IMG/VR virus record: IMGVR_UViG_3300032797_000111
Coordinates: 1 to 22,516 of that record
Reading direction: 5' to 3' (one strand)
From: a virus
DNA: 22,516 nt
In this document: positions 4,530 through 18,491 of the stretch, piece after piece
Numbering within the stretch: position 1 is the first letter of the stretch
Layout: the number at the start of each line of letters is the position of its first letter
Program-made: the position numbers and the translations under genes
The notes under the pieces: model-generated
The model's database searches: none
Told to the model about the DNA's origin: nothing
The model's input: only the letters and a program-made list of their open reading frames with translations

Positions 4530-4555
4530 CCGCAGAGGGTCTTCCCCCTCTGCGG
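4530..4555 (+). promoter_or_regulatory. Ten-bp hairpin directly before methyltransferase start
   Basis: CCGCAGAGGG (4530-4539) and CCCTCTGCGG (4546-4555) form a perfect ten-base-pair stem with a six-base loop, ending eight bases before ATG 4564. No SD lies between the hairpin and the start. GGGGAAG at 4469-4475 is also complementary to CTTCCCC at 4541-4547, so the two leader hairpins could rearrange. Control of translation start is inference. Confidence 0.45.
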
Positions 4556-4563
4556 AATTGTTT

Positions 4564-5751
4564 ATGCAAATCGTAGAAGAAAAAATATCTGATCTTAAAC
4601 TGGCAATATACAATCCCAGAAAAATCTCCATCCACGATTTGGGCAACCTCATAGCTTCAATTCAAGAATTTGGCTTTGTTGAGCCGGCGGTGGTGAACAA
4701 AGATAAGACGGTTATAGGCGGACACCAGAGGATCAGGGCTTGCCAACAGATAGGGATTGAGAAAATTCCCGTTTTTTATGTCGATGTGAACAAGCGAAAA
4801 GAAAAACTTCTAAATCTGGCTTTAAATCGGATTCACGGCGAATGGGATGAGAAAAAACTCTACGAGGTCTTTTTGGAATTAGATATAAAAACGCCAGATT
4901 TTCAGTTGGCGGGATTTGAAAATTTTGAAGTCGATAAGGTTTTCTCTGAATTCGGCGAGCAGAAAGAAGATGATTTTGATTTAGACCAAAGCCTCGAAAG
5001 GAATAAAAATCCTAAAAGCAAAAGGGGAGAAATCTATGAATTGGGCAGGCATAGATTGATGTGCGGAGATGCTACAAATAGAGAAGATGTAGAACAATTG
5101 ATGGATGGGAAAAAGGCAGATATGGTGTTTACTGATCCGCCCTACAATGTGAATTACGATTTTCATAATTCGGGAATGGTGCAATCTGGTCAAAGAAAAG
5201 CAAGATTTGGAAAAATTGAAAATGATTGCATGGATGAAAAAGATTTTGGGGAATTCGTAAACTCTTTTCTAAAACTTATGAATGATTATTTAAAAGCAGG
5301 AGGGGTATTTTATTTAATGGCAGGGAATGAAAGTTCGAGTAACTTTTATATGGCTATACGAAATAATGGTTTTAAATTTAGCGAATTCTTGTTATGGGTT
5401 AAAGATAATTTTACGATAACCAGATGGGATTATCAGCCGAAGCACGAATTCATTTTATATGGTTGGAAAGAAGGAAAACATAGATGGTTTAATAATCGTT
5501 CGCAGGTTTCCGTCTTAGAATTCAAAAGACGAATTGGTCAAACAGAGTACCCTACTGAAAAGCCAGTGGAAATGATAAGTTATTTACTAAAAAATAGTTC
5601 TATGCAAAATGAAATAATATGGGACCTCTTTGGTGGTTCTGGTTCAACTTTGATCGCCTGCGAGCAAACTAACCGCATCTGCTATATGATGGAGATTGAC
5701 CCAGTTTACTGTGATGTGATTAGGGAAAGATATGAAAAATTTATTTCCTAA
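4564..5751 (+). CDS. ParB-like domain fused to DNA methyltransferase, 396 aa
   Basis: Residues about 5-95 are a ParB/Srx-like domain with GGHQRIRA (52-59). After a linker, TDPPY puts the catalytic DPPY near residue 191, and FGGSGST near 356-362 binds S-adenosylmethionine. Catalytic motif before cofactor motif is the order of beta-class amino-methyltransferases, which make N6-methyladenine or N4-methylcytosine. The ParB-methyltransferase fusion is common in phages and mobile elements and usually has no partner restriction enzyme; none is seen here. Likely roles are protection from host restriction or marking DNA for packaging, the latter suggested only by its place next to the terminase genes. 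The start ATG 4564 lacks an SD and follows a strong hairpin; TTG 4558 is an alternative. Confidence 0.9.
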   Translation: MQIVEEKISDLKLAIYNPRKISIHDLGNLIASIQEFGFVEPAVVNKDKTVIGGHQRIRACQQIGIEKIPVFYVDVNKRKEKLLNLALNRIHGEWDEKKLYEVFLELDIKTPDFQLAGFENFEVDKVFSEFGEQKEDDFDLDQSLERNKNPKSKRGEIYELGRHRLMCGDATNREDVEQLMDGKKADMVFTDPPYNVNYDFHNSGMVQSGQRKARFGKIENDCMDEKDFGEFVNSFLKLMNDYLKAGGVFYLMAGNESSSNFYMAIRNNGFKFSEFLLWVKDNFTITRWDYQPKHEFILYGWKEGKHRWFNNRSQVSVLEFKRRIGQTEYPTEKPVEMISYLLKNSSMQNEIIWDLFGGSGSTLIACEQTNRICYMMEIDPVYCDVIRERYEKFIS

Positions 5752-7447: not shown

Positions 7448-9466
7448 ATGAGTTTTATAAAAGATACTTTTGTCAAGCTATTCCGCAATGCTAACTATGA
7501 AAAGAATGTGGGCAAACCTGAGACTACGGAGATTGTCCGGGTTGGCAGGGATTGGATGTGGGACGGGTTTATCAATGACATCATTCAAAACCAAGACTAT
7601 ATTCTTTTGAAAAAAGCACAAGGCAAAAGCTACGCTTTCTATCAAGAGATGGAGGAGAAAGATCCGCATCTGTTTTCAGTTCTGCAGATAAGGAAAAAAG
7701 CAATTACAGGTTTGCCTTGGGATGTCTTGCCCTACGTTTCTGGCAAGGGCGAGGAGGCAAAACGCAGGGATCAGATAATTGCTTGGACGGTTAAGGAAAG
7801 CTTGAAGGGAATTCCGAAATTCAAAGACGATAAATTTGAATTATTAGATGGAATAGCAAAAGGTTTTGCTGTTTCGGAAATTATATGGGGTATGGATGAA
7901 AATAGAGTATATGTTAAAGCTATTCATTCCCGGAAGCAGAGCAGATTTGTGTTTGGGTTAGATGGAGAATTAAGATTATTAACTGATAAGAATCCCTTCT
8001 CCGGTGAGGTTATGCCCGATAGAAAATTCCTTGTTTTCTGCAATCAGCCCTATGCTGAGAATCCCTATGGGACTGCCATTTTGAAAGAGTGCTATTGGTA
8101 TTGGTGGTTCAAGAAGAATTGTGTTAAGTGGTGGGCGATCTTTTCGGAGAAGTTCGCTGCCCCACATTTGGATGTAACCTATCCGTCCTCTGGTTTGTCC
8201 GACCAAGAGAAAGAGAAGATCGACAATTTTATTGATAACTTTCAAAGTGAAACAGGGGTAAGGCATCCAGAGGGAGTAGTCATTAAATTATTGGAAGCAG
8301 TTCGTAGAGGTGAAGGTGGGTATCAGAGTTTTATGGACTATTGCGATGACCAGATTTCAAAGGCGGTGCTGTGTCAAACGCTTACTACTTCAGAGGGGCG
8401 AAGGTCGGGTTCTATGGCTTTAGGGAACGTGCACGCAGATGTAAGGCAAGACGTTTTGGAAGATGATACTGGTTCTTTAGATGTTTCGATAAACCAATTA
8501 GGTCATTGGATTGTGGATTATAACTTTGCGAACGTGGATGGCTATCCGACTTATGTTACCAGTGCAGAAGCGCCGGAAGATTTAGTTACCTTAGCCAGCA
8601 GGGACAAGATTTTATTTGCCCCAACTCAAAGTAATGGCCTTGGTGTGCCGATTGCAAAGAAATATTTCTACGGTCGCTATAACATCCCTGAGCCGAAAGA
8701 GGGAGAAGAACTCTTGGAAACCGGTTTGCCTGTTTCTTTGCCCCTTGGAATGAGTGAGATAAAGACTTTCGCAAGCAAGGGGAAAAGGCGATATTTTCAT
8801 ATCGGCAACACTTTGCAGTTGCAGGATAGATTAAGGGCTAAACTTGAATCTATTTATCGAAGCCTCGAGCCAAAGTATTTATCATTGCTTGAAGAAAATG
8901 CTCCACTCAAAAATACTATCGATGAATTGGTGCGGAACTTTTTTGACGATGGCATGAAGAATGAATTTTATTCCGTCACCGAAGCCTCGATGAAATTGGG
9001 CGTGGAAAATTTGGCAAGGCAATTTGATTTGAGAATCAATCCAAAGGTTTTTCAGGGATGGATGGATGATTATCTGAAATATCGGATTTATGAGAAAGGC
9101 AAGTTTGAGGAGATAGGACAAACCTTGAGCGACCTTCTGCATGGTAAGGCAAAGGATTTATATGACCAGAAATTGACAGTAGAGAATATCAGGGATGAAC
9201 TCAAGGCTAAGTTTTCGGACTTGGCGGACTGGAAGGCACAGACTATTGCCCGGACTGAGGTTAACTCTGCGGCTAATTACGGGGCAATTCAGATGATGAA
9301 GGATTCGGGTTTGGATGTCAAGGCTTGGTTCTTTGTTGATCCAGCATCTTGCGATCTTTGCCAAGATTGGGCGGCAAAGAATCCGTATCGATTAAAAGAA
9401 GCAGAGGATTTAGGCTTACCGCACCCTAATTGTAACGATCAATGGGTCTTTACGGTGGAGGAATGA
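7448..9466 (+). CDS. Portal (DUF935, Mu gp29-like) fused to MuF head protein, 672 aa
   Basis: Residues about 40-430 match the DUF935 portal family: the segment near 65-90 (MEEKDPHLFSVLQIRKKAI, then LPWDV) is its hallmark. The C-terminal 110 residues match the MuF/SPP1 gp7 minor head domain. They carry IARTEVNSAANYG near 598-610, ASCDLC near 637-642 and PHPNCNDQW near 658-666, a Cys/His set that may bind metal. In Mu these are separate genes (29 and 30); here one frame covers both with no internal stop. The portal forms the dodecameric DNA gate and connector site, and MuF proteins enter the head or are ejected with DNA. The ATG follows the terL stop directly. Confidence 0.9.
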   Translation: MSFIKDTFVKLFRNANYEKNVGKPETTEIVRVGRDWMWDGFINDIIQNQDYILLKKAQGKSYAFYQEMEEKDPHLFSVLQIRKKAITGLPWDVLPYVSGKGEEAKRRDQIIAWTVKESLKGIPKFKDDKFELLDGIAKGFAVSEIIWGMDENRVYVKAIHSRKQSRFVFGLDGELRLLTDKNPFSGEVMPDRKFLVFCNQPYAENPYGTAILKECYWYWWFKKNCVKWWAIFSEKFAAPHLDVTYPSSGLSDQEKEKIDNFIDNFQSETGVRHPEGVVIKLLEAVRRGEGGYQSFMDYCDDQISKAVLCQTLTTSEGRRSGSMALGNVHADVRQDVLEDDTGSLDVSINQLGHWIVDYNFANVDGYPTYVTSAEAPEDLVTLASRDKILFAPTQSNGLGVPIAKKYFYGRYNIPEPKEGEELLETGLPVSLPLGMSEIKTFASKGKRRYFHIGNTLQLQDRLRAKLESIYRSLEPKYLSLLEENAPLKNTIDELVRNFFDDGMKNEFYSVTEASMKLGVENLARQFDLRINPKVFQGWMDDYLKYRIYEKGKFEEIGQTLSDLLHGKAKDLYDQKLTVENIRDELKAKFSDLADWKAQTIARTEVNSAANYGAIQMMKDSGLDVKAWFFVDPASCDLCQDWAAKNPYRLKEAEDLGLPHPNCNDQWVFTVEE

Positions 9467-9493: not shown

Positions 9494-9682
9494 ATGAGAA
9501 TTTGCGACATTAAAAATTGTAACCAAGAAGCGAAAAGAAGAGTTGAGCAGAAAGTTATTGAATTAAATATCGATGAAATTATGGAGCCTACATATTGGCG
9601 TTTATTTCGAGGTGATTTATGTGAGGAACATCTTAAGAGACTTGACGAAATTATGGAAAGATTCTTTGCACAAAATAGTTGA
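9494..9682 (+). CDS. Small zinc-finger-like protein, 62 aa
   Basis: The ATG at 9494 follows AAAGGAGAAGGGG. CDIKNC at residues 4-9 and CEEH at 43-46 give a possible C2CH metal site on the two ends of a short helical protein. I recognise the CxxxxC...CxxH layout as common in small phage and actinobacterial proteins, with no known function. It is the first gene of a small-gene island between the portal and the head protease. The last 17 bases overlap the next gene. Confidence 0.55.
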   Translation: MRICDIKNCNQEAKRRVEQKVIELNIDEIMEPTYWRLFRGDLCEEHLKRLDEIMERFFAQNS

Positions 9683-9833
9683 CAAAGAGAAGCTGGAAGA
9701 TTATATTAGAACCCTGAGAGCTGAAAAGTTTACGGGCAAGGTTACCATAAACTTTTTCAAAGGCGGGGTGACGAATATGAATGTTGGGAGCGAACCGGTG
9801 ATATGGGAAGAAAAAACCATAAAAGTAGGGTGA
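9666..9833 (+). CDS. Small phage protein, 55 aa, TTG start
   Basis: The coding part that looks conserved is KLEDYIRTLRAEKFTGKV, then INFFKGGVTNM, a helix followed by a beta hairpin. I recall similar short phage proteins with 'F.G...INF..GG' but no function. The best start is TTG 9666, with GGAAAG at 9655-9660 as SD; the longer frame from ATG 9573 would read through the neighbouring gene in another frame and is unlikely. It overlaps both neighbours slightly and ends at TGA 9831-9833. Confidence 0.5.
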   Translation: MHKIVDKEKLEDYIRTLRAEKFTGKVTINFFKGGVTNMNVGSEPVIWEEKTIKVG

Positions 9834-9838
9834 ACAAA

Positions 9839-10294
9839 ATGAAAGAAAAAGCAGAGGACAAAATAATAAAATGCCGAAAAGGAAGAAGGGGCGAAGCAAT
9901 CAGAAGTTTTAATGACTTGAAGAAACCAATCAGGCTTTTAACATTGGGAGATTTTCCCGAAAGACCACTTACAGAAAATATGTTTAAGGAAATCGTTTCT
10001 AATTTCAAACGGAAGAGATTATCTATCCCTGTTTTTTATTCATTTGATTATAGTTTAGTTGGAGAAGTAGGAAAAATTTGGAAAGAAAAAAATTCACTAT
10101 GGATAAAATTGAAGAACGTAAGCGGTGAAGCAAAAAAGCTTTTTCAATCTGAACCTAAATCTTTTAGTTTAAGTTCTTCGGCTCTTGTCGATCCCGATTG
10201 TGATGACAAGGGGACAACAGGCTTATTAAGAGTTACACTTTTGCGAAAACTAATTGGAATCCCTATCGAAAAAGAACTTGAAGGCAAGAGATAA
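9839..10294 (+). CDS. Diverged paralogue of the head protease, probably inactive, 151 aa
   Basis: Residues about 29-145 align with the protease part (about 75-190) of the gene at 11511. GDFP aligns with GDYP, EIVSNFK with EIVANFN, KIWKEKNSLWIKLKNV with RIWREGDSLWAKLKNL, and IGIP with AGIP. The presumed catalytic His115 (in DHAE) of the larger protein corresponds to Tyr67 here (YSFD), while a Ser is kept near 110 (SFSLSS). Without the His it is unlikely to cut. It lacks the ChaB and scaffold parts. ATG 9839 follows AGGGTG; ATG 9803 is an alternative. It could be a regulator, a decoy subunit or a decaying duplicate. Confidence 0.65.
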   Translation: MKEKAEDKIIKCRKGRRGEAIRSFNDLKKPIRLLTLGDFPERPLTENMFKEIVSNFKRKRLSIPVFYSFDYSLVGEVGKIWKEKNSLWIKLKNVSGEAKKLFQSEPKSFSLSSSALVDPDCDDKGTTGLLRVTLLRKLIGIPIEKELEGKR

Positions 10295-10307
10295 GTGTGG
10301 GGTTGAA

Positions 10308-10541
10308 ATGAATGAACCAACAAAAGTAATATTGAAACATATAAACGATCAAGGTCAAATTGTCGAAGATGTATTTAATTGTTTATTGGATGCTCTGAAT
10401 AAAATTATGGATGACAGTATTCCGAAAGAACGATTTTTGGAGGTTAGAGTAAGATTTGTTTTGATTACGGAAAACTTGGACGTTTTACTTACGGCTGAGG
10501 ACATCCAATATCTTCGGAATAAATGGGTGGTGTTGAAATGA
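10308..10541 (+). CDS. Unrecognised acidic protein, 77 aa
   Basis: ATG 10308 follows a GTGGGG site; the upstream ATG at 10254 would overlap the pseudo-protease gene and has no SD. The protein is acidic and mixed alpha/beta, with a beta-like N-terminus (KVILKHIND) and two helical segments. No Cys cluster, signal or membrane segment is visible. The stop overlaps the next ATG (ATGA at 10538), so it is probably translated together with the zinc-finger gene that follows. Confidence 0.5.
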   Translation: MNEPTKVILKHINDQGQIVEDVFNCLLDALNKIMDDSIPKERFLEVRVRFVLITENLDVLLTAEDIQYLRNKWVVLK

Positions 10542-10798
10542 AGGACAAAAACAAAAAAGAAAAAAGGGATTATACATTCAGATTGTTTGCTATATGTAAG
10601 GTTTGCGGGTGGAAGTTTACATTGGATGCGGAAAGGAGCAAAATTAAATTGGGAATGAATATATTGATTAGCAGAGACCTTTTTCAGCACCTATTACATT
10701 ACCATCCATATACACTTTTTGACGTTGAAAAATATTTTTCTTTGAGTTCTAAGACTCTGAGAGAGTTGAAACAACTTAAAGAAGAAACGAAAGATTGA
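10538..10798 (+). CDS. C2H2-like zinc-finger protein, 86 aa
   Basis: Cys21 and Cys24 (CKVCGWKF) are followed about 25 residues later by HLLHYH, giving a possible C2H2 metal site, with a basic N-terminus (KDKNKKEKRD). ATG 10538 overlaps the previous stop and follows GGGTGGTG; ATG 10523 is an alternative. A DNA- or RNA-binding role is inferred from the finger. It is one of several small Cys proteins in this genome. Confidence 0.55.
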   Translation: MKDKNKKEKRDYTFRLFAICKVCGWKFTLDAERSKIKLGMNILISRDLFQHLLHYHPYTLFDVEKYFSLSSKTLRELKQLKEETKD

Positions 10799-10799
10799 A

Positions 10800-11111
10800 A
10801 TGAGATTAGACAAAGATACCTTAAGGAAACTTAAATATCTCAGGCAAAAATGGGGATTTGTAACTATTGGAAGAAAGGTAATAACCGAACCAATATTTGC
10901 CACTCAAATATGTGCCCCTATTGGAATTCGTGAAGTGGCGGTAACATACTTTTGTCGCAATTTTGATGAAGATGAAAATGGAAATATTACCCGTAATGGT
11001 GAACCTTATTTTGGTGAGCAAATAGCCTTAGAGTGGGATAACCCCGAAGGATTGGTTGATTATCTTTATTGGGATGAAAAAGAACTTGAAAAGGAAGAAA
11101 TGAAAGGATGA
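10800..11111 (+). CDS. Unrecognised protein, 103 aa
   Basis: The ATG at 10800 follows the previous stop with one base between. The protein has a basic N-terminal helix, a central hydrophobic stretch (ATQICAPIGIREVAVTYFC) with two Cys, and a very acidic C-terminus (WDEKELEKEEMKG). No domain is recognised. The stop overlaps the next ATG as ATGATGA, in keeping with coupled translation through the island. Confidence 0.5.
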   Translation: MRLDKDTLRKLKYLRQKWGFVTIGRKVITEPIFATQICAPIGIREVAVTYFCRNFDEDENGNITRNGEPYFGEQIALEWDNPEGLVDYLYWDEKELEKEEMKG

Positions 11112-11287
11112 TGAAAAGGGTATTTTTAAACTTACTGTGGAATCTTAGATTCTTTCTCTTCCGAATGTGGGTTAGAAATAAAGAGATTTCCCTGATAGAT
11201 TTTAAAACGGGAAAGAATTGGGCTGAAATAAAAGATGTGAAAAAAGATAAGGACAATATAACTTTGGAGATAGAAGTTAAAAGTTAA
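11108..11287 (+). CDS. Small protein with amphipathic N-terminal helix, 59 aa
   Basis: Two ATG codons in a row (11108 and 11111) follow GAAAGGA; the second has the better spacing. Residues 4-22 form an aromatic, hydrophobic but Arg-containing helix (FLNLLWNLRFFLFRMW) that could lie on a membrane. It is followed by a polar beta-like tail. The family is not recognised. It is the last gene before the structured RNA, which begins seven bases after the stop. Confidence 0.45.
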   Translation: MMKRVFLNLLWNLRFFLFRMWVRNKEISLIDFKTGKNWAEIKDVKKDKDNITLEIEVKS

Positions 11288-11294
11288 GGAAATC

Positions 11295-11375
11295 TAAATG
11301 CAAGTATCATTCAGTATGAAAGGATTCTCGGGTATGTCCGAGAAAGGATAGTTTGAATCTATCTACTTGCATTTA
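11295..11375 (+). ncRNA. tRNA-shaped four-way RNA structure
   Basis: A perfect 12-bp stem (11295-11306 with 11364-11375) closes three arms. Arm one is TCAT (11307-11310) with ATGA (11316-11319), or alternatively TTCA with TGAA one step over. Arm two is TTCTCGG (11325-11331) with CCGAGAA (11338-11344), loop GTATGT. Arm three is GATAG (11347-11351) with CTATC (11359-11363), loop TTTGAAT. Arm three abuts the closing stem with no gap, as the T arm does in tRNA, and its 5-bp stem and 7-base loop differ from the T-loop consensus mainly by T for C56. The six-base middle loop, lack of a GG D loop and lack of CCA argue against a working tRNA. It may be a leader switch or a phage small RNA. Confidence 0.55.
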
Positions 11376-11417
11376 ATGAGGGCAAAAAATGTAACAATTA
11401 GAATAATTTAAATACAA

Positions 11418-11425
11418 CTCGGACA
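11418..11425 (+). promoter_or_regulatory. Octamer complementary to arm two of the RNA fold
   Basis: CTCGGACA is perfectly complementary to TGTCCGAG at 11335-11342, the loop edge and 3' strand of arm two. A second, shorter copy (CTCGGA) follows at 11426-11431. It could form an alternative pairing that opens arm two. Confidence 0.35.
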
Positions 11426-11440
11426 CTCGGAACAAACCGA

Positions 11441-11488
11441 AGCCGACCAAAATTGCAGAGATGCAAGTGGTCGGCTTTTTTGTTTTTA
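11441..11488 (+). terminator. Intrinsic terminator before the protease gene
   Basis: AGCCGACCA (11441-11449) pairs with TGGTCGGCT (11468-11476). Inside, TTGCA (11453-11457) pairs with TGCAA (11462-11466) around the tetraloop GAGA. A T-rich tract (TTTTTTGTTTTT) follows. ATGCAAGT at 11461-11468 in its 3' strand is identical to 11298-11305 and therefore complementary to 11365-11372 of the upstream closing stem. Confidence 0.9.
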
Positions 11489-11510: not shown

Positions 11511-13076
11511 GTGCCATACGAAAAGTCAAATTTGCCAGATAGAATCAAGGGCTTGCCCGACCATGCCCAAGCGATCTGGATTGCTGCTTTCAATAATGCC
11601 ATTGAGGAATACAAGGGCGACGAGGGAAAAGCCAATGCTACCGCTTGGTCGGCGGTTAAAAAAGCTGGCTACGAGCAGGATGCGAAGGGCGAATGGCATA
11701 AGAAATTCGGCGAGGGGGGAATGGATTTTAACCAACCTATCGAGATTTTCAGGGTAGGCGATTATCCGCAGGGGAAATATACTACCAAAGACTTAGATGA
11801 GATTGTTGCTAATTTCAATCCTGAAGTTCACGAGCCGCCCTTAGTTATAGACCATGCAGAGACGGGTCCCGCCTACGGATGGATCGAAAGGATTTGGCGT
11901 GAAGGGGATTCTCTCTGGGCAAAGCTTAAAAATCTAACCAAAGACATCAAAGAAAAAATCAAAGAGGGGGAATATAAAAAGATTTCAATAATGCTCTGGG
12001 AGAATTTTGACAATACAGCCAAAAAAGTTTTAAAGCATGTGAGCCTTTTGGGGGCGGGCATTCCTCAAGTTAAGGGACTGAAGACATTTTCAGACGTGCA
12101 TGGACTTTATCGGTGCATCACTTTTGAGGATGATGTCAATTCTGAATTCGCTGCAACGGAAGAAGATAAAAAAGTCCAGAAAATAAGATCAACTAAATAT
12201 GGTATCACCATTCGGGAGGATGGTAATGTGACCAAGCCTTCCGAATGGGCAAACGTCCCCGATGAACAGTGGGCGGACCCGGTCAATTATGCTTATCCTT
12301 GCCCGAATTACGACCAGACCGTTGCTGCCTTGCGTTATTGGGGCAAATCCGAAAACCAATCTAAATATTCAATGGAGGACAAAACAACTATAACCAAGAG
12401 GCTTCTTTCCTTTGCCAAGAAATACAAGGTCGAGTCACAGACCAAGCAAAGCGAAATGAAAGAAGCCCAAACAACAATTGAGGAGTTTATTGAAACTAAT
12501 GGAGGTCAAGAGATGACACAAGAGGAAATTCAAAAACTAATTGATTCGACTGTCGAGGCTAAGACCAAAGAATTTACGGAGAAAGTTAATGTCTTGACGG
12601 ATGAAAACAAAAAACTCAAAGAAGATGCAGACCTAACGACCAAGAAAATGTCCGAGCGGGAATTGAATACCCAGCGTGTGGAGATTAAGGCATTTTGCGA
12701 AAATCTCAAAAGCAAAGGGCAGATTATTCCGGCTTGGCTTGATATGGGAATGCTGAAATTTATGGAGAGCCTCGATTCGCAGAACGTTTCCAAATTCAGT
12801 GAGGCGGATAGTTCAAAAGAGATTTCTCCCTATGCTTGGTTTAGGTTATTCCTCGAATCTCTGCCCAAGGTGGTGGAGTTTAAGGAATTGGCAAAAGATA
12901 AGGATGGGAACTTACAAGTGGAAAGCAAATTCTTTGTGGTGGCGGATACCAACGCTCATCTGCCCATCAAAAACGATGAACTGGCTGAGAAGGCAGTTCA
13001 ATTTATGGAATCTAACAAGGACAAAAAGCTAACCTTCAAAGAGGCCTTGATTGAGGTTAGCAGGAGGGACAAGTAA
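11511..13076 (+). CDS. ChaB domain, Mu I-type head protease and scaffold fusion, 521 aa
   Basis: Four parts can be seen. Residues 1-65 are a ChaB-like domain (LPDHAQAIWIAAFNNA, ending GEWHKK). Residues 73-190 are the Mu I-type prohead protease, with candidate catalytic His115 (IDHAE) and Ser159 (KKISIML). Residues about 245-307 resemble the DUF6582-type domain found inside some phage proteases (AYPCPNY, AALRYW). Residues about 335-385 are a coiled coil, followed by a scaffold-like tail to 521. The protease matures the prohead and removes the scaffold. GTG 11511 follows ACGAGG at 11497-11502. An internal SD and ATG at 12513 probably give a separate scaffold. The gene is the first after the terminator at 11441. 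Confidence 0.85.
   Translation: MPYEKSNLPDRIKGLPDHAQAIWIAAFNNAIEEYKGDEGKANATAWSAVKKAGYEQDAKGEWHKKFGEGGMDFNQPIEIFRVGDYPQGKYTTKDLDEIVANFNPEVHEPPLVIDHAETGPAYGWIERIWREGDSLWAKLKNLTKDIKEKIKEGEYKKISIMLWENFDNTAKKVLKHVSLLGAGIPQVKGLKTFSDVHGLYRCITFEDDVNSEFAATEEDKKVQKIRSTKYGITIREDGNVTKPSEWANVPDEQWADPVNYAYPCPNYDQTVAALRYWGKSENQSKYSMEDKTTITKRLLSFAKKYKVESQTKQSEMKEAQTTIEEFIETNGGQEMTQEEIQKLIDSTVEAKTKEFTEKVNVLTDENKKLKEDADLTTKKMSERELNTQRVEIKAFCENLKSKGQIIPAWLDMGMLKFMESLDSQNVSKFSEADSSKEISPYAWFRLFLESLPKVVEFKELAKDKDGNLQVESKFFVVADTNAHLPIKNDELAEKAVQFMESNKDKKLTFKEALIEVSRRDK
12513..13076 (+). CDS. Nested scaffold protein from internal start, 187 aa
   Basis: ATG 12513 (codon 335 of the protease gene) follows GGAGGT at 12501-12506 by six bases, a better site than that of the parent gene. 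The product would be the coiled coil and C-terminal tail only. Lambda uses the same plan for its protease C and scaffold Nu3, where the scaffold is made in excess from an internal start. Internal initiation here is inference from the SD and the domain boundary. Confidence 0.6.
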   Translation: MTQEEIQKLIDSTVEAKTKEFTEKVNVLTDENKKLKEDADLTTKKMSERELNTQRVEIKAFCENLKSKGQIIPAWLDMGMLKFMESLDSQNVSKFSEADSSKEISPYAWFRLFLESLPKVVEFKELAKDKDGNLQVESKFFVVADTNAHLPIKNDELAEKAVQFMESNKDKKLTFKEALIEVSRRDK

Positions 13077-16909: not shown

Positions 16910-17911
16910 ATGAAACTCTGTCTTTATAGCGTAGCCAACGTTGATAAGACGGGCTATGGTGCAATGCTAAAGAACTTCACCATAGCCCTGTTTCAGAGAG
17001 GAATTGATCTGGTCGATTTCTATGCTTGTGATAGGGCGGACGTGCAGATTTTTATTGGGCAACCTGCCCGAATATTAAGAAACTTTAAAACCAGAAGGGG
17101 GATTTTTGACTATCTAAAGCGGAAATCGGACAGGTTTTTCCTCTTTTCGATGTTCGAGGCAGAAAAGTTGCCACCCAATTGGGCACAGGATATTAACCAG
17201 TGGTTCGATGCGGTGATCGTTCCTTCGGATTGGTGCAAAGAGAAATTCGTAAATGCTGGGGTCACTTTGTCAATCCATAAAGTTCCTCTGGGAATTAACC
17301 CCAACGATTTTCCATTTATCAAGCGACCGGATAGGGATACTTTCACCATTGTCTGGCAGGGGCTTTATTTTGGCGATAGGAAGGGTAATAGTTTGGTTAG
17401 ACGGGCTTTAGAGGAACTGGACTTGCCCAAGGTTAGGCTGATAGAGAAAATCGTCCCATTCGCCCTTAAAGCCCGTTCGGAGTTTGCCTTCTATTCAGAG
17501 AAAATCTGGTCAATCTGCGAGGTCTTGCCCCAGACCGATATGTTGTTTTTGCTAAAAGAGGCTGACCTTTCCTTGAATCCCACCAGTGGGGAGGGCTTTG
17601 GCTTGATCCCCCTTGAGCACATGGCTACGGGGTTGCCGGCGATAGTTTCGGACAACAGCGGGTGCAAGGAGTACATTAACGCAGATTATAACATTCCGAT
17701 CCAGTGCCGGCTGATGGAGGCTTTCTTTGGTGGGGAATATGGATTGGATGAGCGCCCGGACTATGAGGATATGAAAGCGAAACTTGTTTATTGTTATAAT
17801 CACAGAGAAGAGATAAAAGAAATGGGTTGGAATGCCTCAAGGTGGGTTCGTGATGAGTGGACTTGGGATAGGGCAACGGATAAGCTTTTGGAGGTGATAA
17901 AGAATGTCTAA
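16910..17911 (+). CDS. GT4-like glycosyltransferase, 333 aa
   Basis: This is a GT-B fold enzyme of the GT4 type. The C-terminal sugar-nucleotide site is seen as SGEGFGLIPLEHMATGLPAI, with Glu228 and Glu236 forming the E-x7-E motif, followed by SDNSGCKEYI. The N-terminal half contains VPSDWCKEKF and HKVPLGIN, usual acceptor-domain and linker segments. It transfers a sugar from a nucleotide donor to an unknown acceptor. It starts three bases after the tail tube stop, with SD TAAGG, and overlaps the methyltransferase by eight bases. Virion or DNA glycosylation, or change of the host surface, are all possible; position favours a virion target. It appears complete. Confidence 0.85.
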   Translation: MKLCLYSVANVDKTGYGAMLKNFTIALFQRGIDLVDFYACDRADVQIFIGQPARILRNFKTRRGIFDYLKRKSDRFFLFSMFEAEKLPPNWAQDINQWFDAVIVPSDWCKEKFVNAGVTLSIHKVPLGINPNDFPFIKRPDRDTFTIVWQGLYFGDRKGNSLVRRALEELDLPKVRLIEKIVPFALKARSEFAFYSEKIWSICEVLPQTDMLFLLKEADLSLNPTSGEGFGLIPLEHMATGLPAIVSDNSGCKEYINADYNIPIQCRLMEAFFGGEYGLDERPDYEDMKAKLVYCYNHREEIKEMGWNASRWVRDEWTWDRATDKLLEVIKNV

Positions 17912-18491
17912 GAATTGGGTGGAATTTTTAAAGGGCAATCCCGGATATGATGCTTTGGTCAGCTCGGTTATGATTGGCGAATTGATTAAAGCAGTCAACG
18001 GTTATGCAACTCCCCCAGACAAACTCTTAGAGGTTGGGTTTGGAACAGGATTCACTGCTATTGCTTTGTCAAAATTAGGTTACAAGGTTTATGCCGTTGA
18101 TGAGATTTTTGAATTGATAGAACCAGCGGAGAAGGAAAATGAAAAGCGACAGGGTAGTGTTGTCTTTCTGAATTTGAATAATTCGCAGTTGTGGAATTAT
18201 TTTTTGGAAAGTGCCATTAGTTTTCAGTTGATTTATCATCAGGGATTATTGGAACATTTTTCAGACGAAAAGATTGTTGAAATGTTAAACCAACAAATCC
18301 CCCTTTGCCGATATTTAGTTTTCAGTGTGCCTTCGATAAATTACGGTGGACAGGATTTTGGGGACGAGAAACTTATGTGTTTAGCTGATTGGCAAAAGAT
18401 TTTGAACGATTTTGAAATCGTCGAAAGTAAATATTACGATGAGGCTAAGCATATTTTAATTGTTTTAAAAGGAGGTTTCAATGGCAAATGA
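17904..18491 (+). CDS. Class I SAM-dependent methyltransferase, 195 aa
   Basis: Motif I is LLEVGFGTGF (residues 41-50), with the acidic residue after strand 2 at Asp66 (AVDE). A post-motif segment HQGLLEHF near 112-119 resembles small-molecule or sugar methyltransferases. No target-recognition domain for DNA is present, so a DNA methylase is unlikely. ATG 17904 follows GGAGGTGA and overlaps the glycosyltransferase stop. Its own last codons carry the SD of the tail chaperone (GGAGG), which ties it into the tail operon. A joint role with the glycosyltransferase, such as methylating an added sugar, is inference from this pairing. Confidence 0.8.
   Translation: MSKNWVEFLKGNPGYDALVSSVMIGELIKAVNGYATPPDKLLEVGFGTGFTAIALSKLGYKVYAVDEIFELIEPAEKENEKRQGSVVFLNLNNSQLWNYFLESAISFQLIYHQGLLEHFSDEKIVEMLNQQIPLCRYLVFSVPSINYGGQDFGDEKLMCLADWQKILNDFEIVESKYYDEAKHILIVLKGGFNGK

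Follow-up and report, generated by a model that had tools for sequence, protein, structure and literature searches.

Close to the head-protease gene of an uncultured phage lies a small open reading frame whose product resembles the protease domain of that enzyme, and the locus raises the question of what a stand-alone copy without the expected catalytic histidine does beside the active enzyme. The window, meaning the whole stretch of DNA that was analysed, is a virus record of 22,516 bases. The small protein is referred to here as P0001 and the head protease as P0002, and the coordinates of the main features are collected in Table 1.

Table 1. Position and character of the main features of the window.
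Feature	Coordinates	Strand	Description
Portal gene	7448..9466	+	Mu-type portal with C-terminal head-morphogenesis part (Portal_Mu, E 8.6e-86)
Small-gene cassette	9494..11290	+	GC about 0.34; follows the portal fusion and precedes the protease; contains P0001
oD	9678..9833	+	conserved frame of 51 codons immediately before P0001; the codon at 9678 is not a standard start
P0001	9839..10294	+	151 aa; paralogue of the head-protease domain; stand-alone, without His
Conserved RNA	11407..11487	+	terminator/attenuator-like, about 80 bases; between the cassette and the protease gene; z -5.4
P0002	11511..13076	+	521 aa: ChaB (8-65), Mu-like head protease (about 71-197), DUF6582 (249-310), C-terminal scaffold-like part (Pfam)

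An earlier sequence-only reading had described P0001 as an intact frame similar to the protease part of the gene at 11511. The frame was recovered exactly, with its 151 codons intact; a further in-frame ATG lies upstream at 9803, and a start there would lengthen the protein by 12 aa. The similarity was borne out by BLASTP against the protease domain of the 521-aa P0002, which gave 52.4 bits (E 6e-13, 41/135 identical), while the top score among 5000 shuffled P0001 sequences was 28.9 bits. All of the shared motifs that had been listed are present (GDFP/GDYP, EIVSNF/EIVANF, SLWIKLKN/SLWAKLKN and GIP), and the identity of the two proteins is 32%. Searched against its own record, P0001 matched itself and the P0002 protease and nothing else. 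Profile comparison with hhalign against the family, including the window's clade, gave 90% (E 1.7e-6), firm over about residues 28-104 and weaker over residues 105-147; when the rows nearest to P0001, those of the window's own clade, were removed, the value was 7.6% (E 0.0046), and for two control proteins from elsewhere in the window it was 0.1% and 0.9%. P0001 has neither the ChaB domain nor the scaffold part of P0002 and ends right after the protease domain.

P0002 matched the head maturation proteases of phrog_976 with an E-value of 3.1e-52, and its gene is followed by those of a cement/scaffold-type protein and of the major head protein (phrog_1005). Two related records have the protease domain within frames of 993 codons (L122, 5405-8383) and 801 codons (L123, 1-2403), an arrangement that suggests its fusion to an upstream head protein. 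By reading, the portal/head protein gene of L067 is interrupted at about 4550-5560 by a putative intein, and an endonuclease-like ORF lies at 4750-5400 on the strand opposite to the interrupted gene. Elsewhere in the window, a gene that precedes the terminase genes (4558-5751) joins a ParB N-terminal domain to an N6/N4 DNA methyltransferase, and glycosyltransferase (GT4-conflict, PF20706) and methyltransferase genes lie between tail genes (16910-18491); counterparts of the latter were recognized by reading at a similar place in L114 (10070-11666).

The active site was compared in an alignment of 90 distinct protease domains from related viral and bacterial contigs, the window's own included. 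H115 and S159 of P0002 were invariant in 90/90 domains and H176 was present in 98% of them. Herpesvirus assemblins have the catalytic order His-Ser-His, and on the grounds of this analogy and of the invariance the three residues are taken as the putative catalytic triad. P0001 contains no histidine at all, the sole such row among 65. The counterpart of H115 was Tyr71 in the BLAST alignment and Phe69 in that of MAFFT, so that the previous statement that the expected His has become Tyr stands as far as the loss is concerned, the replacing residue being dependent on the aligner; the complete absence of His is the stronger statement. H176, at the third triad position, corresponds to Arg131, and a Ser is kept at the family Ser position (Ser108, Ser110 or Ser113, depending on the alignment). 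The near relatives L008 (9001-9366), L114 (4706-5095) and L067 (5720-6097) have Ala at the third triad position, where P0002 keeps its His; because of these relatives, loss of the third residue is no proof of inactivity and the argument is carried by the first His. As judged from its residues, P0001 is very unlikely to cut by the mechanism of the family. It might still be a protease with another catalytic arrangement, and a Ser and acidic residues do remain near the old site, but with no His anywhere and with the PA-[FY]-G-W and KKRS motifs around the site also lost, we consider this barely credible. The proposal that P0001 is an intact, stand-alone paralogue of the head protease and inactive was upheld; the protein, which holds no His, almost certainly lacks His-Ser catalysis, and P0001 is very probably catalytically dead.

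An AlphaFold2 model of P0001 built on the 65-row family alignment had a mean pLDDT of 77.4 and a pTM of 0.70, with pLDDT of about 90 in residues 31-100 and of 49-77 per block from residue 101 onwards. This model aligned with T4 gp21 (Z 8.7, rmsd 3.4, 125 residues aligned) and, at Z of 7.4 or less, with herpesvirus proteases as far as rank 37, at identities of 6-16% in the structural alignments. Foldseek matches were weak (best E 0.05), with an unrelated protein in the top row and herpesvirus proteases from rank 2, and the named matches among predicted viral structures were mostly scaffold, peptidase or prohead-protease proteins. The model made without an alignment was poor (pLDDT 37.8) and had helices and strands at the same places as the alignment-based model. 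Structure prediction, which had been put forward as a test of the fold, favours a protease fold to this extent: the good model is biased by the family alignment on which it was built, and the single-sequence model is of low confidence.

A stand-alone domain of this kind could be what is left of a protease once duplicated or imported, functionless and decaying, a view with which its very long branch, its missing domains, its different base composition and the lack of orthologues in the searches agree. However, 151 codons have stayed open at 32% identity. In random sequence of the composition of P0001 the probability of such a frame is about 2e-6, and in 1000 simulations that took the protease domain to 33% identity by neutral substitutions only, 3 frames remained open and the mean number of stops was 6.7. 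The loss is also concentrated in the active site: P0001 and P0002 agree least in the His loop (2/15 identical) and most in the beta-hairpin of residues 76-95 (10/20), with 11/31 in residues 30-60, 5/16 in residues 96-112 and 10/30 in residues 113-147. A core fold kept while the active site is lost is the pattern that a working pseudoenzyme would show, and we rate a mere remnant as quite unlikely. No orthologue was found in the viral contig collection with P0001 as query or in the phage collection by tblastn, a two-row profile of P0001 and P0002 gave 265 stretches in the viral contigs among which no orthologue was confirmed, and P0001 had no match in Pfam, PHROGs, NCBIfam or PADLOC. Since no orthologue was found, the case for selection on P0001 is drawn from a single sequence.

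The best match of P0001 among the sequences fetched by that stage was the protease of the window, followed by those of L008 and L009. At alignment column 77 P0001 and the window's protease clade both have Trp, a position at which Lys or Arg stands in 92% of the family. In a tree it grouped with the window protease, L008 and L067 (98/99) on an extreme branch, and in a second tree without the window protease (37 rows, L114 added) it stood beside L114, L008 and L067, with no starred branch; the great length of its branch makes the placement unsure. From these sequence comparisons P0001 probably derives from the clade of proteases to which P0002 belongs. It may have arisen by duplication within this phage or by import, the difference in GC3 between P0001 and the protease gene allowing import from an AT-richer relative.

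Base composition sets the gene apart from the head genes. P0001 has a GC content of 0.34, a GC3 of 0.265 and accessory-like codon use, as against GC and GC3 of 0.437 and 0.489 for the P0002 gene and of 0.467 and 0.511 for the major head protein gene. The closest relatives, L008 (whose protease is 55% identical) and L114, have other small genes between portal and protease. The frame oD is common to the cassettes of the window, L008 (7225-7404), L114 (4024-4191) and L138 (1110-1319), with ORFs of about 50-70 aa in the four phages and no Pfam match above the cut-off. No second protease-like copy was found in the related loci, either in a search of 108 sources or in one of 123 sources, which gave two short, weak matches. 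These, L027 55-195 (19 residues, E 0.0065) and L015 3205-3684 on the minus strand (51 residues, E 0.022), were taken as chance. Exactly one protease copy was present in each of 25 related virus records searched whole, which were chosen from a larger set, most of them fragments, and which include neither L027 nor L015. Searched against 17 related records, P0001 matched the active protease of three and nothing else. It is strongly supported that P0001 is an accessory gene in a variable cassette beside the portal gene.

This setting bears on two further readings. P0001 may be a weapon or shield, the product of an accessory (moron) gene whose dead domain would poison the head protease when a related phage infects the same cell, as would suit a cassette whose content differs between relatives, codon use of accessory type (GC3 0.265, against 0.489 for the protease) and a protein not found in the relatives examined. 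PADLOC, however, gave a defence-family match for 0/7 cassette proteins, and the closest known protease is that of the phage itself, so that self-poisoning would be expected; we regard this reading as unlikely. Alternatively, P0001 may be a minor structural or internal component of the head, the protease fold being reused for binding to capsid or scaffold. The retained core fold with its lost active site, the adjacent head genes and the oligomeric state of this fold in T4 gp21 speak for such a role, but the codon use and GC of P0001 are unlike those of head genes and the protein is missing in relatives whose head genes stand in the same order, which leaves a head component improbable as well.

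Between the cassette and the protease gene stands a conserved RNA element, copies of which occur in L008 (7722-7803), L114 (4383-4462), L138 (3699-3775 and 7329-7408) and also L009; it stands upstream of head genes in the window, L008 and L114. Its 5' block, AATAGnAGTATCGGACACTGG, is almost constant, and by reading of five copies the 3' terminator varies in the sequence of its inner hairpin and keeps its form. Pairing is conceivable between UCGG in the 5' block and CCGA in the terminator stem, which would make an attenuator-like arrangement, and the element may be a promoter-terminator or an antitermination leader. In L138 an extra copy of the 5' block, without the terminator, precedes a start codon; tblastn of the 13.7 kb fetched from L138 found none of the window's portal, protease and major head protein. 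No Rfam family matched the conserved RNA at its gathering score, and the permissive matches, to STnc430 (21.6 bits, cut-off 47) and an HIV hairpin, were taken as chance. A second strong stem-loop lies just upstream at 11295-11375 (z -3.97) and likewise gave no match in Rfam. With a terminator-like element between their genes, P0001 and P0002 need not be co-produced.

The reading that we prefer is that P0001 is a dead stand-alone paralogue which works by binding and restrains prohead maturation; we assign it a probability of roughly 0.45. Many proteases are regulated by inactive paralogues. It is well supported that P0001 has lost catalysis together with the ChaB domain and the scaffold part, and probably retains the protease fold. 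It would join oligomers of the protease or occupy the acidic scaffold/protease substrate, and by this binding proteolysis would be lowered or delayed during prohead assembly. The charges of the two proteins are opposite in sign. P0001 has a net charge of +12, to which its N-terminal tail contributes, the family mean being -0.8 (sd 2.4, 64 domains); residues 30-142 by themselves reach +6, the same as the highest value in the family. P0002 has a net charge of -12, with -9 in residues 200-521. According to passages of PMC9958956, T4 gp21 is a pentamer whose N-terminal part blocks the site before activation, and this makes mixed oligomers of P0001 and the protease conceivable. The basic P0001, the acidic P0002 and the pentameric, self-blocking gp21 together favour a binding role. 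Against restraint, P0001 is without the C-terminal region by which it might enter the prohead; lacking the scaffold part, it is also not a scaffold of the usual kind. That the maturation restrained is that of the phage itself we put forward tentatively, and with some doubt.

Among known systems, the Mu gpI-like head-maturation protease/scaffold proteins (phrog_976) have a homologous protease domain and the same head-gene neighbourhood as P0001, but P0001 lacks their catalytic His, scaffold part and ChaB domain. T4 gp21 and the herpesvirus assemblins resemble the predicted fold of P0001 in the alignment-based model and, unlike P0001, are active enzymes. The nearest parallels come from giant phages. 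Passages of PMC5694885 describe gp117 of phage SPN3US as a prohead-protease paralogue that is diverged, truncated and presumably inactive, and name related proteins in Erwinia phages, in 201phi2-1 (gp206, 145 aa) and in PhiPA3 (gp143, 136 aa); in these 'cryptic' paralogues the alignment keeps the catalytic Ser and Asp but not the His, and the authors call the case unprecedented to their knowledge. The passages of PMC10052503 at hand do not mention gp117. P0001 shares with the cryptic paralogues that it is diverged, truncated, stand-alone and a paralogue of its own phage's protease, with the His missing and the Ser aligned, and its 151 aa are close to the 161 aa of gp117 and the lengths of gp206 and gp143. 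The giant phages, however, have a protease of the S80/gp21 type and show the paralogue in several phages, whereas P0001 belongs to the Mu-like ChaB-protease-scaffold family and is seen in a single phage; the SPN3US gene numbers, 117 and 245, are far apart, whereas P0001 lies close to its active protease gene. Compared directly by BLASTP alone, P0001 and gp117 showed no similarity (12.7 bits, E 3.1). A literature search of open-licence PMC papers found no case beyond those of the giant phages. The kind of protein is known from giant phages, and what is new is its seemingly independent occurrence in a Mu-like phage of small size. There is a slim chance that dead head-protease domains are recurrent, independently evolved prohead regulators which act in trans on the proteases of their own phage or of a competitor; in the same low-probability reading, giant and Mu-like phages would share a His-less, Ser-keeping stand-alone form of about 150 aa, carried in the Mu-like phage as an accessory gene. 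With its compact genome, the active enzyme close by and no apparent relation to the giant-phage proteins, this second case offers a simple pair of proteins on which restraint of prohead maturation could be tested directly.
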